Below, piece after piece: positions 18,438 to 46,624 of a stretch of 64,000 nucleotides of DNA. The translations under genes were made by a program, and so were the position numbers. Under the pieces are notes generated by a model. The model saw only the letters and a list, made by a program, of their open reading frames with translations, did no database searches and was not told the DNA's origin. How positions within the stretch are numbered: the first letter of the stretch is position 1; each line of letters starts with the position of its first letter. Source of the DNA: Desulfuromonas sp. (GTDB lineage: Bacteria > Desulfobacterota > Desulfuromonadia > Desulfuromonadales > BM103); the NCBI GenBank assembly GCA_012026975.1, contig VEPG01000008.1, positions 1 to 64,000 of the forward strand, written 5' to 3'.

Positions 18438-19415
18438 ATGACTCCCCGCATCCTTCGACTCCAACTGCTGTGGGCAGCGGTTGCCGCAGCCCTGCTGTTC
18501 GGCTCCGGTCCCCTGCATGCCGCCGAGGCCGAACTTGCGCCGCTGGCAAGCCAGGCCCTGCTGCTCGATGGCCAGGCGATCGGCAACACCCTGATCGCGG
18601 TCGGCGAACGCGGACACATCCTCACCTCCCTCGACGCCGGGCGTTCCTGGCAGCAGCACCCGGCACCGACCCGCGCCACCCTGACCAGCGTCTTCTTTAC
18701 CGATGCCCAGCACGGCTGGGCGGCCGGACACGACGCCGTGATCCTGCGGACCGTCGACGGCGGCACCACCTGGCAGAAGGTCCATGAGGATTTCGACAGC
18801 GGGCCGCTTCTCGACCTGTGGTTTCGCGACGCCAGCACCGGTTATGCCATCGGGGCCTACGGGCTGTACCTGATGACCCGTGACGGCGGCGCCACCTGGG
18901 AATCGCTGACGATCAGCGACGAGACCGGAGCCGAGACCGACCTGCATTTCAATCAGCTGCGGGCCCTTGCCGACGGGCGCCTGATCATTGCCGCCGAATC
19001 CGGGCGCCTGCTGCTTTCGTCGGACAACGGCCGCAGCTGGAAAAGCCTGCCAAGCCCCTACGAAGGATCGCTGTTCGGCACACTGCCCTTCGGCAACGAC
19101 CGGCTGCTGGCCTACGGCCTGCGCGGGCATGTCTTTCGCTCTCCCAATGGGGGGCGCAGTTGGCGGCCGATTGCCGCCGGGACCGAGGCAATCCTCAACG
19201 ATGCCATCCAATTGCGAGACGGACGGCTCATCGTCGTCGGCCTGGCCGGAACCGTGCTGATCAGCAGCGACAACGGCGAACACTTCACCTTGCGGCAGCA
19301 GCAGGACCGGGCCGGTTTCGTCAAGGCGGTGGAAGCCGTCGACGGCGCCCTGATTCTGCTCGGCGCCCAGGGCGCCCGCCGGCTTGAACTGTCCGCGACA
19401 GGAGGCTTGCCATGA
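18438..19415 (+). CDS. YCF48/BNR-repeat exported protein
   Basis: This 325-residue protein has a signal peptide ending PLHAA and a series of Asp-box-like repeats (LTSLDAGRSWQQ, LRTVDGGTTWQK, LMTRDGGATWES, LLSSDNGRSWKS, FRSPNGGRSWRP, LISSDNGEHF), which build a beta propeller like that of the photosystem assembly factor YCF48. Genes of this type regularly precede the RND permease in DUF1302/DUF1329 clusters and are presumed periplasmic partners of it. Its last codons overlap the RND start (ATGA), so the two are coupled. Confidence 0.83.
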   Translation: MTPRILRLQLLWAAVAAALLFGSGPLHAAEAELAPLASQALLLDGQAIGNTLIAVGERGHILTSLDAGRSWQQHPAPTRATLTSVFFTDAQHGWAAGHDAVILRTVDGGTTWQKVHEDFDSGPLLDLWFRDASTGYAIGAYGLYLMTRDGGATWESLTISDETGAETDLHFNQLRALADGRLIIAAESGRLLLSSDNGRSWKSLPSPYEGSLFGTLPFGNDRLLAYGLRGHVFRSPNGGRSWRPIAAGTEAILNDAIQLRDGRLIVVGLAGTVLISSDNGEHFTLRQQQDRAGFVKAVEAVDGALILLGAQGARRLELSATGGLP

Positions 19416-21730
19416 TCGGCAACAGCTGGCGCGACCGGCTGGCCACGGCGATCTTCCGGCACCGGGCGCTGATTCTCATCCTCTTCCTGCTGGCCACCAT
19501 CGGCTTTGCCGCAGCTACGGTCCGGCTGCGCATCGATGCCGGCTTCGACAAGATGCTGCCGATGCAGCACCCGTACATGCAGACCTTTGCCCAGTACCGC
19601 GAGGCCTTCGGTGGCGCCAACCGGGTGCTGGTGGTGGTCATGGCCAGGGACGGCGACATCTTCACCCCGGAGTATTTCGAGACCCTGCGCAAGGCGACCG
19701 ACGCGGTCTTCTTCCTTCCCGGCGTCGATCGCAGCCGGGTACGCTCGCTCTTCACCCCCAACGTCCGCTATACCGAGGTGGTGGAGGAGGGGATCGCCGG
19801 GGACAACGTGGTGCCGGCCGATTTCCAGCCGACCGCGGAGGGGCTGGCGCGGGTCCGTCAGAACATCCTCAAGGCCGGGATCATCGGGCGCCTGGTGGCC
19901 AACGATTTCCGCGGCGCACTGATCAGTGCCGAACTCCTCGAGGTCGACCCGGCTACCGGCAAAAAACTCGACTACCTGGAGGTCGCCCGCCAGCTTGAGG
20001 CAACGCTTCGTCAGCCGTTCAGTAATGAACGGACCAGCGTGCACATCATCGGCTTTGCCCAGATGGTCGGCGACATCGCCGCCGGAGCCAAGCGGGTGGT
20101 GCTCTTCTTCGCGCTCGCCTTTCTGGTCACCGGCGCCCTGGTCTACCTGTTCACCCGCGCCCACCGGGTCAGCGCCCTGCTGCTGGTCTGTTCGGCAGTG
20201 GCGGTGGTCTGGCAACTCGGAGCATTGACCCTGCTCGGCTACGGCATCGATCCGCTGGGGATTCTGGTACCGTTTCTGATCTTCGCCATCGCCGTCAGCC
20301 ACGGGGTGCAGATGATCACCGCCGTACGCGCCGAGATCTTCGCCGGCTCCACCAGCCTGGAAGCGGCGCGCAACAGCTTCAGCCGCCTGCTGGTCCCCGG
20401 CGGCACGGCCCTGCTCACCGATCTGGCCAGTTTCGTTACCATCCTCCTGATCAAGGTTCGCGTCATCCAGGAACTGGCCATCGCCGCCAGCCTTGGGGTG
20501 GCGGCGATCATCCTGACCAACCTGTTGCTGCTACCGATCCTGCTCTCTTATGTCCCGTTTCCGGACGACTACCGCCAGCGCCTGGAACGGCGCATCGAGG
20601 CGATGGATCGCATCTGGCTGCGGGTCGCCCTGCTGGCCCGACCAAAGCCGGCCATGGCGGTTCTGCTGGTGGCCGGGATCCTCGCCGGCTACGGCTGGTG
20701 GCGGGGGAACGACGTGCGCATCGGCGACCTGCGCCAGGGCGTGCCGGAACTGCGCCCCGACTCGCGCTACAACCAGGACATTGCGACCGTCACCGGGCAT
20801 TTTTCCATCGGCGTTGATCTGCTCACGGTGATTGCCGAAGCCAAACCGGACGGCTGCACCGATTACACCACCATGGAGACCATTGACCGTTTCGCCTGGC
20901 GGATGCAGAACACCCCCGGGGTGCAGTCGGCGATCACCCTGCCGCAAATCGCCAAGCAGCTCAACGCCGGCTGGAACGAGGGAAACCTCAAGTGGCAGGT
21001 GCTGCCGCGCGACCGCCAGACGCTGGTCGAGGCGGTCCAGTACATCCCGACCAGCAGCGGCCTGCTCAACGATGACTGCAGCGTCATGCCGGTCATGCTC
21101 TTCACCACCGACCACAAAGCCGAGACCATCGACCGGGTCATCGCCGCCACCGAAAAGTTCGAAACCGAAGAGAAAGCCGGCCCGGTCCGCTTCCGCCTCG
21201 CCTCCGGCAACGTCGGGGTGATGGCCGCCACCAACCGGGTGGTCGATGCCGCGCAGTTTCCGATCCTGCTCTACGTATTCGGCGCGATCATCGCCCTGTG
21301 CCTGCTGACCTTCCGTTCCCTGCGCGCCACCGTAAGCATCGTCCTGCCGCTCGGGTTGGTCTCCATGCTCGGCTATGCCCTGATGGCCGAGTTGCATATC
21401 GGCCTTAAGGTCTCGACCTTGCCGGTGGTGGCCTTCGGGGTCGGCATCGGCGTCGATTACGGGATCTACATCTACAGCCGCTTCCAGGCCTTTCTCGACG
21501 AAGGGCAGACGATCTACAACGCCTACCACGAGACGCTGAAGATCACCGGCAGCGGCGTGCTCTTCACCGGCATCACCCTGGCCTTCGGCACCGCCACCTG
21601 GATCTTCTCCCCGCTCCAGTTCCAGGCCGACATGGGGGTGCTGCTCACCTTCCTCTTTCTGGTCAACATGCTCGCCGCGCTGATGGTGCTGCCGGCACTG
21701 GCGAGTTGGCTGTTGCGCCTGCGGCGATGA
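19412..21730 (+). CDS. RND/MMPL-type membrane permease
   Basis: This 772-residue protein has two halves, each an N-terminal helix, a large periplasmic loop and five clustered helices (residues about 20-40, 220-380, 400-425 and 615-770), as in the MMPL/HpnN group of RND proteins. These act on lipids, sterols or hopanoids, with no membrane-fusion partner needed. The charged motif GVGIGVDYGIYIYSRF lies in the last third. Together with DUF1302 and DUF1329 it could form a trans-envelope route for a hydrophobic compound. The stop codon coincides with the start of a dispersed repeat element. Confidence 0.82.
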   Translation: MIGNSWRDRLATAIFRHRALILILFLLATIGFAAATVRLRIDAGFDKMLPMQHPYMQTFAQYREAFGGANRVLVVVMARDGDIFTPEYFETLRKATDAVFFLPGVDRSRVRSLFTPNVRYTEVVEEGIAGDNVVPADFQPTAEGLARVRQNILKAGIIGRLVANDFRGALISAELLEVDPATGKKLDYLEVARQLEATLRQPFSNERTSVHIIGFAQMVGDIAAGAKRVVLFFALAFLVTGALVYLFTRAHRVSALLLVCSAVAVVWQLGALTLLGYGIDPLGILVPFLIFAIAVSHGVQMITAVRAEIFAGSTSLEAARNSFSRLLVPGGTALLTDLASFVTILLIKVRVIQELAIAASLGVAAIILTNLLLLPILLSYVPFPDDYRQRLERRIEAMDRIWLRVALLARPKPAMAVLLVAGILAGYGWWRGNDVRIGDLRQGVPELRPDSRYNQDIATVTGHFSIGVDLLTVIAEAKPDGCTDYTTMETIDRFAWRMQNTPGVQSAITLPQIAKQLNAGWNEGNLKWQVLPRDRQTLVEAVQYIPTSSGLLNDDCSVMPVMLFTTDHKAETIDRVIAATEKFETEEKAGPVRFRLASGNVGVMAATNRVVDAAQFPILLYVFGAIIALCLLTFRSLRATVSIVLPLGLVSMLGYALMAELHIGLKVSTLPVVAFGVGIGVDYGIYIYSRFQAFLDEGQTIYNAYHETLKITGSGVLFTGITLAFGTATWIFSPLQFQADMGVLLTFLFLVNMLAALMVLPALASWLLRLRR

Positions 21731-21842
21731 AAAACGCCCATCCGCGGCGTTGCCCTTGCTCTCGTCGCTGCAACAACGTACCATAGGGTACGCCTCGCTC
21801 CTCGACTTGCGGGCGCCTGGCACCCGGGCATTTTTGATCGCC
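21723..21842 (+). repeat. Dispersed 120-bp element, copy 1
   Basis: The element begins GGCGATGAAAAACGCC, overlapping the RND stop codon, and ends GGCATTTTTGATCGCC. The two ends are inverted repeats of 16 bp with two mismatches. An inner stem CGTACC-ATAG-GGTACG lies at the middle. The same sequence, about 85 percent alike by eye, occurs inverted at 46181-46301 directly after another gene. No open reading frame of note lies within it. Confidence 0.85.
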
Positions 21843-45529: not shown

Positions 45530-45847
45530 ATGGTCATCAGCGCCTGCAACTACCGTGACCGGATCGCCTACAGCGACGCCAAGGCCAACAAGGTCGTGCT
45601 CAGCGAGGCCGAGCATGCCCGCACCACCCTCTGGTGCCTGAAGCCGGGGCAGCACATCCACGCGCATGTCCATGCCGGCGACCATGTCTGGGTCGTTCTG
45701 GAAGGGGAGGGCACCTTCCTCAGCGAAGGTCTGCCGGGCCTGCCGGTCAAAGCCGGCAGCGTCGTCATTGCCGCCGCCGGCATCTCCCACGGCATCGACA
45801 ACAACGGCAGCGCCGGCCTGGTCTTTGTCAGCGTTTCGGCCGGCTGA
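45530..45847 (+). CDS. Small cupin-domain protein in the sfr operon
   Basis: This 105-residue single cupin has GQHIHAHVHAGDHVWVVLEG supplying three or four His for a metal, then AGSVVIAAAGISHGIDN in the second motif. It follows sfrA by 10 bp with a good AAGGGGAAG site and precedes the operon terminator, so it is transcribed with sfrBA. It may sense or stabilise a redox state; no direct role is known. Confidence 0.82.
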   Translation: MVISACNYRDRIAYSDAKANKVVLSEAEHARTTLWCLKPGQHIHAHVHAGDHVWVVLEGEGTFLSEGLPGLPVKAGSVVIAAAGISHGIDNNGSAGLVFVSVSAG

Positions 45848-46087: not shown

Positions 46088-46132
46088 GAAAATAAAGAGG
46101 AGCAGGGCTAATCCCTGCTCCTCTTTATTTTC
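46088..46132. terminator. 20-bp perfect hairpin terminator
   Basis: Arm 46088-46107 and arm 46113-46132 are perfectly complementary over 20 bp (GAAAATAAAG... / ...CTTTATTTTC) with loop CTAAT. A- and T-rich stem ends let it work in both directions, after the small peptide gene and possibly after the zinc-ribbon gene on the other strand. Confidence 0.9.
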
Positions 46133-46180
46133 CAGTGCTGAGTAACGAGTGCTGAGCGATCGAGCCAGTTGAATGTTCCA

Positions 46181-46301
46181 GCGCTGATCAAAAATGCCTA
46201 GGTGCAAGGCGCCTGAAGCTTGAGGAGTGAGGCGTACCGCAAGGTACGTCGCAGCGACGAAAGCGAAGGCAACGCCGCAGATGGGCGTTTTTCATCAGCG
46301 C
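46181..46301 (-). repeat. Dispersed 120-bp element, copy 2
   Basis: Read on the minus strand it begins GCGCTGATGAAAAACGCC, covering the last codon and stop of the zinc-ribbon gene, and ends GGCATTTTTGATCAGCGC. Ends are 18-bp inverted repeats with two mismatches; an inner stem CGTACC-TTGC-GGTACG matches copy 1. The body aligns with 21723-21842 except for a 3-bp gap, and the outer bases differ but stay self-complementary. Confidence 0.85.
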
Positions 46302-46624
46302 AGATTCGTAGCGCATCTCGGACAGGTGAGCATGCTGGTCGACGGCACCTTGTGGCCGCAACTCGGGCAGTTGAACCAGTAGCGACAGTATTTGCACTGG
46401 GGGTCGGAGAGCCCCTGCTTGCGCTTGCACTTCGGGCATTCCCGGTACATCTTGCTGCTGGCCACATAATCCTCAAAGAGCAGCCCGCAACGGGCGCAGA
46501 TCTTCGCATCGCGCCGATGATTGGGCGCCTCGCAGCGGGGATTCGGACAGACAAAGACCGTCCGGCAGCTTTTGCACCAGTATTTCCCTTTGGTCATCTC
46601 TTTACAAACGGGGCACTTCTCCAT
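46295..46624 (-). CDS. Multi-zinc-ribbon protein of unknown function
   Basis: This 109-residue protein is almost entirely made of zinc knuckles: CPVC, CKSC, CPNPRC, CARC, CPKC, CKYC, CPSC and CPRC, i.e. eight pairs sufficient for four zinc ribbons, with basic and aromatic residues in between. It could bind nucleic acid or act as a scaffold. An AGAGGTG site precedes the ATG. Its stop codon is part of the dispersed repeat. The gene lies downstream of rubrerythrin on the same strand behind a terminator. Confidence 0.75.
   Translation of the reverse strand: MEKCPVCKEMTKGKYWCKSCRTVFVCPNPRCEAPNHRRDAKICARCGLLFEDYVASSKMYRECPKCKRKQGLSDPQCKYCRYWFNCPSCGHKVPSTSMLTCPRCATNLR

Follow-up and report, generated by a model that had tools for sequence, protein, structure and literature searches.

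What is the approximately 120-bp sequence that starts at the stop codon of an RND/MMPL-type transporter gene of Desulfuromonas sp. and recurs, inverted, elsewhere in the window (the whole stretch of DNA analyzed, 64,000 nucleotides of contig VEPG01000008.1)? The initial annotation had claimed that the two copies share core ends and an inner stem, that their differing outer bases remain complementary, as a conserved folded RNA or a palindromic insertion target would give, and that each is placed behind a gene in the same sense, as a shared 3′ processing or termination element might. Both copies were found where it had placed them (Table 1), and they aligned in inverted orientation with 82% identity across 121 bp (E 1.6e-29). 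The core ends, GATGAAAAACGCC and GGCATTTTTGATC, and the inner stem CGTACC-N4-GGTACG are common to the two copies. The outer stems differ yet are complementary, GGCGAT/ATCGCC in copy 1 and GCGCTGAT/ATCAGCGC in copy 2, and each copy lies 3′ of a gene in the same sense, with the stop codon of the RND/MMPL gene inside copy 1 and that of the zinc-ribbon gene inside copy 2. A separate, ordinary terminator hairpin, GAGGAGCAGGG...CCCTGCTCCTC TTTATTTT, is present at positions 46100-46135 of the window, between a cupin gene (45530-45847) and copy 2.

Table 1. Positions in the window of the two hairpin copies, their parts and the genes that end in them.
Feature	Position	Strand	Remarks
Copy 1 of the hairpin element	21723..21842	- (better-folding strand); + (RND gene sense)	118.4 bits, model R1
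Copy 1 outer stem, 5′ arm GGCGAT	21723..21728	+	Pairs with 21837-21842; takes in the last codons of RND and the T of its stop
Copy 1 outer stem, 3′ arm ATCGCC	21837..21842	+	
Copy 1 A-tract	21730..21734	+	AAAA nearly invariant family-wide
Copy 1 T-tract, 3′ of the G+C-rich stem	21831..21835	+	Terminator-like on the RND sense strand
Copy 1 inner stem-loop CGTACC-ATAG-GGTACG	21777..21792	+	
RND/MMPL-type transporter gene	19412..21730	+	PF03176; TGA 21728-21730 inside copy 1
Copy 2 of the hairpin element	46181..46301	+ (better-folding strand)	142 bits
Copy 2 outer stem, 5′ arm GCGCTGAT	46181..46188	+	Pairs with ATCAGCGC at 46294-46301
Copy 2 outer stem, 3′ arm ATCAGCGC	46294..46301	+	
Copy 2 inner stem-loop CGTACC-GCAA-GGTACG	46233..46248	+	
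Small protein gene, weak zinc-ribbon match	46295..46624	-	PF13248/PF12773 below cut-off; stop 46295-46297 inside copy 2

When the genome that holds the window (2.83 Mb, 116 contigs) was searched by sequence, 17 full and 3 half copies were found. The covariance model R1, built from 17 copies of this genome, recovered 18 strong copies in it (114-145 bits), each scoring highest on one and the same element strand, and additional weak matches, opposite strands among them. Together with the search of relatives, on which the claim of a dispersed element depended, this yielded many further copies and not just two. The three half copies (L018/L191, L019/L185 and L020/L192, at G000:C68:96075, C87:27607 and C63:17566, respectively) have full elements as orthologues in G001 and G002 (L139, L157 and L163), and in two of them another, A/T-rich repeat of the ACTAGTGACTAGT type is attached.

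The element is a dispersed imperfect palindrome of about 115-125 bp that forms one long hairpin of 41 pairs. In the sense of the genes it follows, it reads TGATGAAAAACGCC...GGGCATTTTTGATCA, and the complement is the better-folding strand. Among the 17 own-genome copies, standard pairs occupied 96.7% of cells and two-sided changes were found at 17 of the 41 pairs; of 500 shuffles, none came up to the real copies on any of five measures, and sliding the partner by 1-3 columns lowered pairing to 32-45%. The same strong pattern of covariation was present in 53 unique copies from many genera and in 115 copies aligned to the model alignment. The 115 copies come from best matches and are related, so that counts made on them are not independent; despite this relatedness, a single inherited change cannot account for compensatory changes of so many types or for the orthologous comparisons described below. 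These findings show that the hairpin is preserved by selection, since the paired bases change together and the fold itself is thereby kept. The outer stem is mostly GGCTGAT/ATCAGCC, with GGCTGCT/AGCAGCC, GGCCGAT/ATCGGCC, GGGTTGAT/ATCAACCC and GGTCGCT/AGCGACC as variants. The AAAA/TTTT pairs are nearly constant (110-112 of the 115 copies) amid pairs on either side that covary freely, as expected if the sequence of the T-tract itself matters.

In the order, 63 of 118 genomes, belonging to 34 of the 51 genera sampled, carry the element (E<=1e-6); in the class Desulfuromonadia, which comprises metal- and sulfur-breathing bacteria, the figures are 66 of 156 genomes, from 34 of the 59 genera (E<=1e-12). 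Several complete genomes had zero copies, and the numbers of copies per genome are lower bounds (at least 23 in G002, for example). The covariance-model scan was confined to the class; beyond it, 84,980 species genomes were scanned for an exact pattern, and all records recovered were of Desulfuromonadales, Geobacteraceae or Geotalea, apart from one MAG titled Deltaproteobacteria, which matches G002, a genome of the same genus as the one that holds the window. Rfam 15 gave no match above the gathering score in the window and none near the threshold at copy 1, and the matches obtained at permissive thresholds were attributed to chance only.

The position of the element relative to genes was strongly non-random in orientation. 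Gene calls came from a simple caller based on codon usage, checked for plausibility on the window only. With the 115 copies oriented by the better-folding strand, 63 stood in tandem behind a gene (<E<), 22 between convergent genes (>E<), 19 in tandem on the other strand (>E>) and 1 between divergent genes (<E>), the remainder being at contig ends or overlapping; the lone divergent copy has a tRNA-Ser gene on its near side. Divergent gaps make up 8 of the 34 intergenic gaps of 30-800 bp in the window, and at this rate the probability of 0-1 divergent sites among 105 is about 2e-11, with copies treated as independent. Of 88 copies whose better-folding strand has a gene directed toward its 3′ end, 79 have the stop codon of that gene at -17 to +10 bp relative to the end of the element, and the element's own TGA serves as the stop for 18 genes. 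On the gene sense strand, the gene-side end GGCTGATGAAAA is at or a few bases from a stop codon or a tRNA 3′ end, the commonest stop context being TAG-NN-GGCTGATGAAAA, and TAG is enriched beside the element (35/62 native stops compared to 81/327 overall). The element also lies a few nucleotides behind tRNA-Ser(GGA) in G079 and G092 (genus g45) and in G086 and G101 (g48). On the far side, the distance to the neighbor is variable. As for a shared 3′ processing or termination element, a 3′-end element is strongly supported by position (the stop codons, the tRNA 3′ ends, almost no divergent sites), and termination itself is a plausible candidate role. None of the three outcomes named in the initial annotation as refuting it (no further copies, random orientation relative to genes, no covariation) was seen.

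Head-to-tail arrays of 2-4 copies with spacers of ~30-50 nt were found at gene ends in G045, G056, G064 and G049, beginning at or near the stop codon in the first three; the spacer is itself repeated at L251, L252 and L257 (G045) and at L253 and L254 (G056). In several genera, a loose tail, TTGAAAAA-N-TCAC..., was seen ~20-30 nt outside the left end, opposite the gene-anchored one (L107, L026, L042, L089, L252) and may be part of the copied unit. At L049 (G000:C19) and L090 (G002), the element is just upstream of a tRNA-Ser(UGA)-tRNA-Ser(GCU)-tRNA-Arg cluster.

Three species of the genus (G000, G001 and G002) have many element sites in common, with flanks mostly 83-90% identical. At several of these sites the outer stems differ by compensating changes, as between L175 (GGGCTGCT/AGCAGCCC, also written as GGGCTGCTCA/TCAGCAGCCC) and L165 (GGACCGAT/ATCGGTCC, also written as GGACCGATCA/TCATCGGTCC) and between copy 2 of the window (L190, GCGCTGATCA/TCATCAGCGC) and L143 (GGGTTGCTCA/TCAGCAACCC). 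Orthologous copies averaged 0.85 identity compared to 0.785 for other cross-genome pairs, and in 58 comparisons the closest copy in another genome was at the syntenic site only 30 times. Concerted evolution was not adopted as an explanation, as half of the orthologous copies are no closer than paralogues, and turnover and saturation are indistinguishable. At other sites the element is absent in one or two of the three species. The genes hemE and hemH, named from reading the sequence, overlap by ATGA in G000 and G002; in G001 the element lies between them and supplies the hemE stop. At empty sites, short stretches were replaced and no clean target duplication was seen, the species being about 83-87% identical. 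The RND orthologue of G001 has no counterpart of copy 1 behind it but a trypsin-like protease gene, and this site is uninformative. These comparisons show that the element was inherited vertically at many sites and is missing from others. The loci L210 (G000:C79), L216 and L218 drew attention to other palindromes: one, AGGGACAGTCC...GGACTGTCCCT, overlaps the TAG stop of a gene end at which G001 has the 120-bp element, and a related GGGGACAGAATTGAATTCTGTCCCC palindrome is conserved in three species beside a further site. Seemingly, palindromic repeats of unrelated kinds accumulate at gene ends.

Several known systems resemble the element in part. REPs occur mainly between tandem or convergent genes, near 3′ ends, sometimes supplying the stop codon, in clusters and with imperfect stems (PMC3733652). 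Like the GTAG/CGTC-tagged REP/BIME repeats, the element is downstream of genes, avoids divergent gaps, is close to or supplies the stop codon, is clustered and has an imperfect stem. Unlike them, it is about 115-125 bp with 41 pairs compared to 20-40 bp, it carries A4/T4 tracts inside its stem, and it has no unpaired GTAG/CGTC tag, conservation outside the stem on the gene side being at most 0.26 bits and GTAG occurring in only 17 of 61 stop contexts. A link to RAYT (Y1) was also lacking, with no Y1 gene found in G002 (at least 23 copies) and no element within about 1.5 kb at 30 Y1 loci. The element is therefore not a REP by definition, and a RAYT/Y1-driven REP was rejected on the same absence of co-occurrence and adjacency. 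The ERIC/IRU of enterobacteria is a single long imperfect palindrome of about 127 bp in transcribed intergenic regions. The element is likewise a single long imperfect palindrome of similar length, though probably of a different sequence, and it belongs to another phylum. Integron attC, a folded single-strand site behind stop codons, was rejected since the ends of the element, judged by eye, are unlike RYYYAAC/GTTRRRY. Multicopy intergenic families, some of them palindromic, have been described in Geobacter and Pelobacter genomes of the same bacterial class (PMC2700814, PMC2996986, PMC3543383); the main texts of these reports give no sequence matching the element, which could be identical to one of the families already catalogued. 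In low-GC Firmicutes, A/T-bordered stem-loops near stop codons have been read as two-way intrinsic terminators (PMC1590033). The element resembles these in having 4 A before and 4 T after a stem near a stop codon, and differs in being one homologous 120-bp family where theirs are unrelated short sequences (PMC1590033).

The reading that we favor, with a probability of about 0.57, is that of a long REP/ERIC-like repeat whose hairpin works at transcript 3′ ends as an attenuating terminator and/or by RNA protection. A dispersed repeat family of the class Desulfuromonadia would be held at gene 3′ ends, its hairpin would be transcribed, and the G+C-rich stem with the flanking A4-5/T4-5 tracts would act at the transcript 3′ end, as an attenuating and possibly two-way intrinsic terminator and/or as a barrier protecting or defining the RNA 3′ end. 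We infer such RNA-level action, by termination or protection, from the position of the element, its association with tRNA genes, its rarity between divergent genes and the constancy of its A/T tracts. Behind the RND gene, a G+C-rich hairpin is followed by a T-tract, GCCTGGCACCCGGGC ATTTTTGATC at 21815-21829, as in an intrinsic terminator. Complete termination is not likely to be general, since in 19 copies the gene on the side that otherwise abuts a gene end starts after the element, several of them only 12-24 nt away and orthologous pairs included, and since the next gene start is less than about 30 nt away in roughly a third of tandem sites. In some cases the tandem genes separated by the element are too close for a new promoter, a poor fit to an obligate terminator, and the splitting of hemE from hemH in G001 was likewise counted against the terminator reading, as was an internal sequence more conserved than a terminator requires. 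The strand opposite to the sense of the abutting gene had 358 G.U and 66 A.C in the 115 copies, and the excess persisted (188 to 37) at tandem sites at which this strand is not transcribed by any annotated gene. This excess counts against a purely mRNA-level constraint, which would favor the other strand; together with the copies near start codons, it leads us to prefer an attenuating terminator or 3′-end barrier, akin to what has been suggested for REP repeats, over an obligate terminator.

The main rival is a folded single-strand DNA substrate, that is, a non-autonomous mobile element recognized by a recombinase or transposase and inserting preferentially at gene ends, with the fold as recombination substrate and any RNA effect secondary. 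This would account for a helix strand asymmetry that is independent of transcription direction, for the presence/absence differences among sister species, for the different copies at the same gene end (30 of 58 nearest copies syntenic), for the head-to-tail arrays and for the enrichment of TAG stops. It is nevertheless unlikely, because many copies are old and vertically inherited, the empty sites show neither a visible target duplication nor a clean target, and Y1_Tnp genes occur in element-free genomes in addition to the absences at Y1 loci and in G002 given above. An autonomous version was not seen in a non-exhaustive search. Of the terminal repeat that a MITE would have, GGCTGAT at the very end varies with compensation and the inner GATSAAAA is fixed. 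A more specific proposal, in which a mobile hairpin unrelated to REP/RAYT is a strand-specific folded single-strand DNA element with its own putative enzyme, placed precisely at stop codons class-wide, is distinctly unlikely.

Decidedly improbable is a selfish or neutral palindrome tolerated only behind genes, its arms kept complementary by template switching during replication (palindrome correction) and not by selection. Long inverted repeats are prone to such correction, and the half copies with lost middles (L018-L020) would fit. However, correction would erase wobbles and mismatches, yet U.G at columns 31-128 is retained in 91 of the 115 copies and G.U at 68-89 in 75, the unpaired positions are conserved across genera, and intact copies persist where three species share a site and, in two genera, beside tRNA-Ser genes. 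With strand-specific wobbles and internal loops persisting, palindrome correction is disfavored as the source of the covariation.

A trans-acting or cis-regulatory structured RNA from the antisense strand would suit the G.U-rich strand, the conserved internal loops and the lack of an Rfam match, but it is hard to credit, as no consistent gene class or promoter side was noticed, 63 of the 115 copies have no gene transcribing that strand, and a regulatory RNA class would not be expected in many dispersed copies at gene ends. The palindromic insertion target of the initial annotation, with the outer complementary bases left over from a pre-existing palindrome such as a terminator hairpin, agrees with outer arms that differ among copies and stay complementary, but the orthologous empty sites speak against it: the two arms were not found at six of these (L205, L206, L207, L209, L216 and L218), the gene end at L135/L210 carries another palindrome of different sequence, and the consensus outer stem is itself part of the element, so that as an origin of the family it has hardly any probability left. 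The conserved folded element proposed beside it stood.

As a natural experiment, the class-wide occurrence of stop-codon-anchored, covarying hairpins, which probably act at transcript 3′ ends, can inform on the way in which mRNA 3′ ends are set in bacteria and on the means by which palindromic repeats spread when the usual Y1 transposase is lacking. With no Rfam family for the element, the structure model can serve in the annotation of Desulfuromonadia intergenic regions. Since element-bearing Geotalea are culturable, termination, RNA stability and spread are directly testable.
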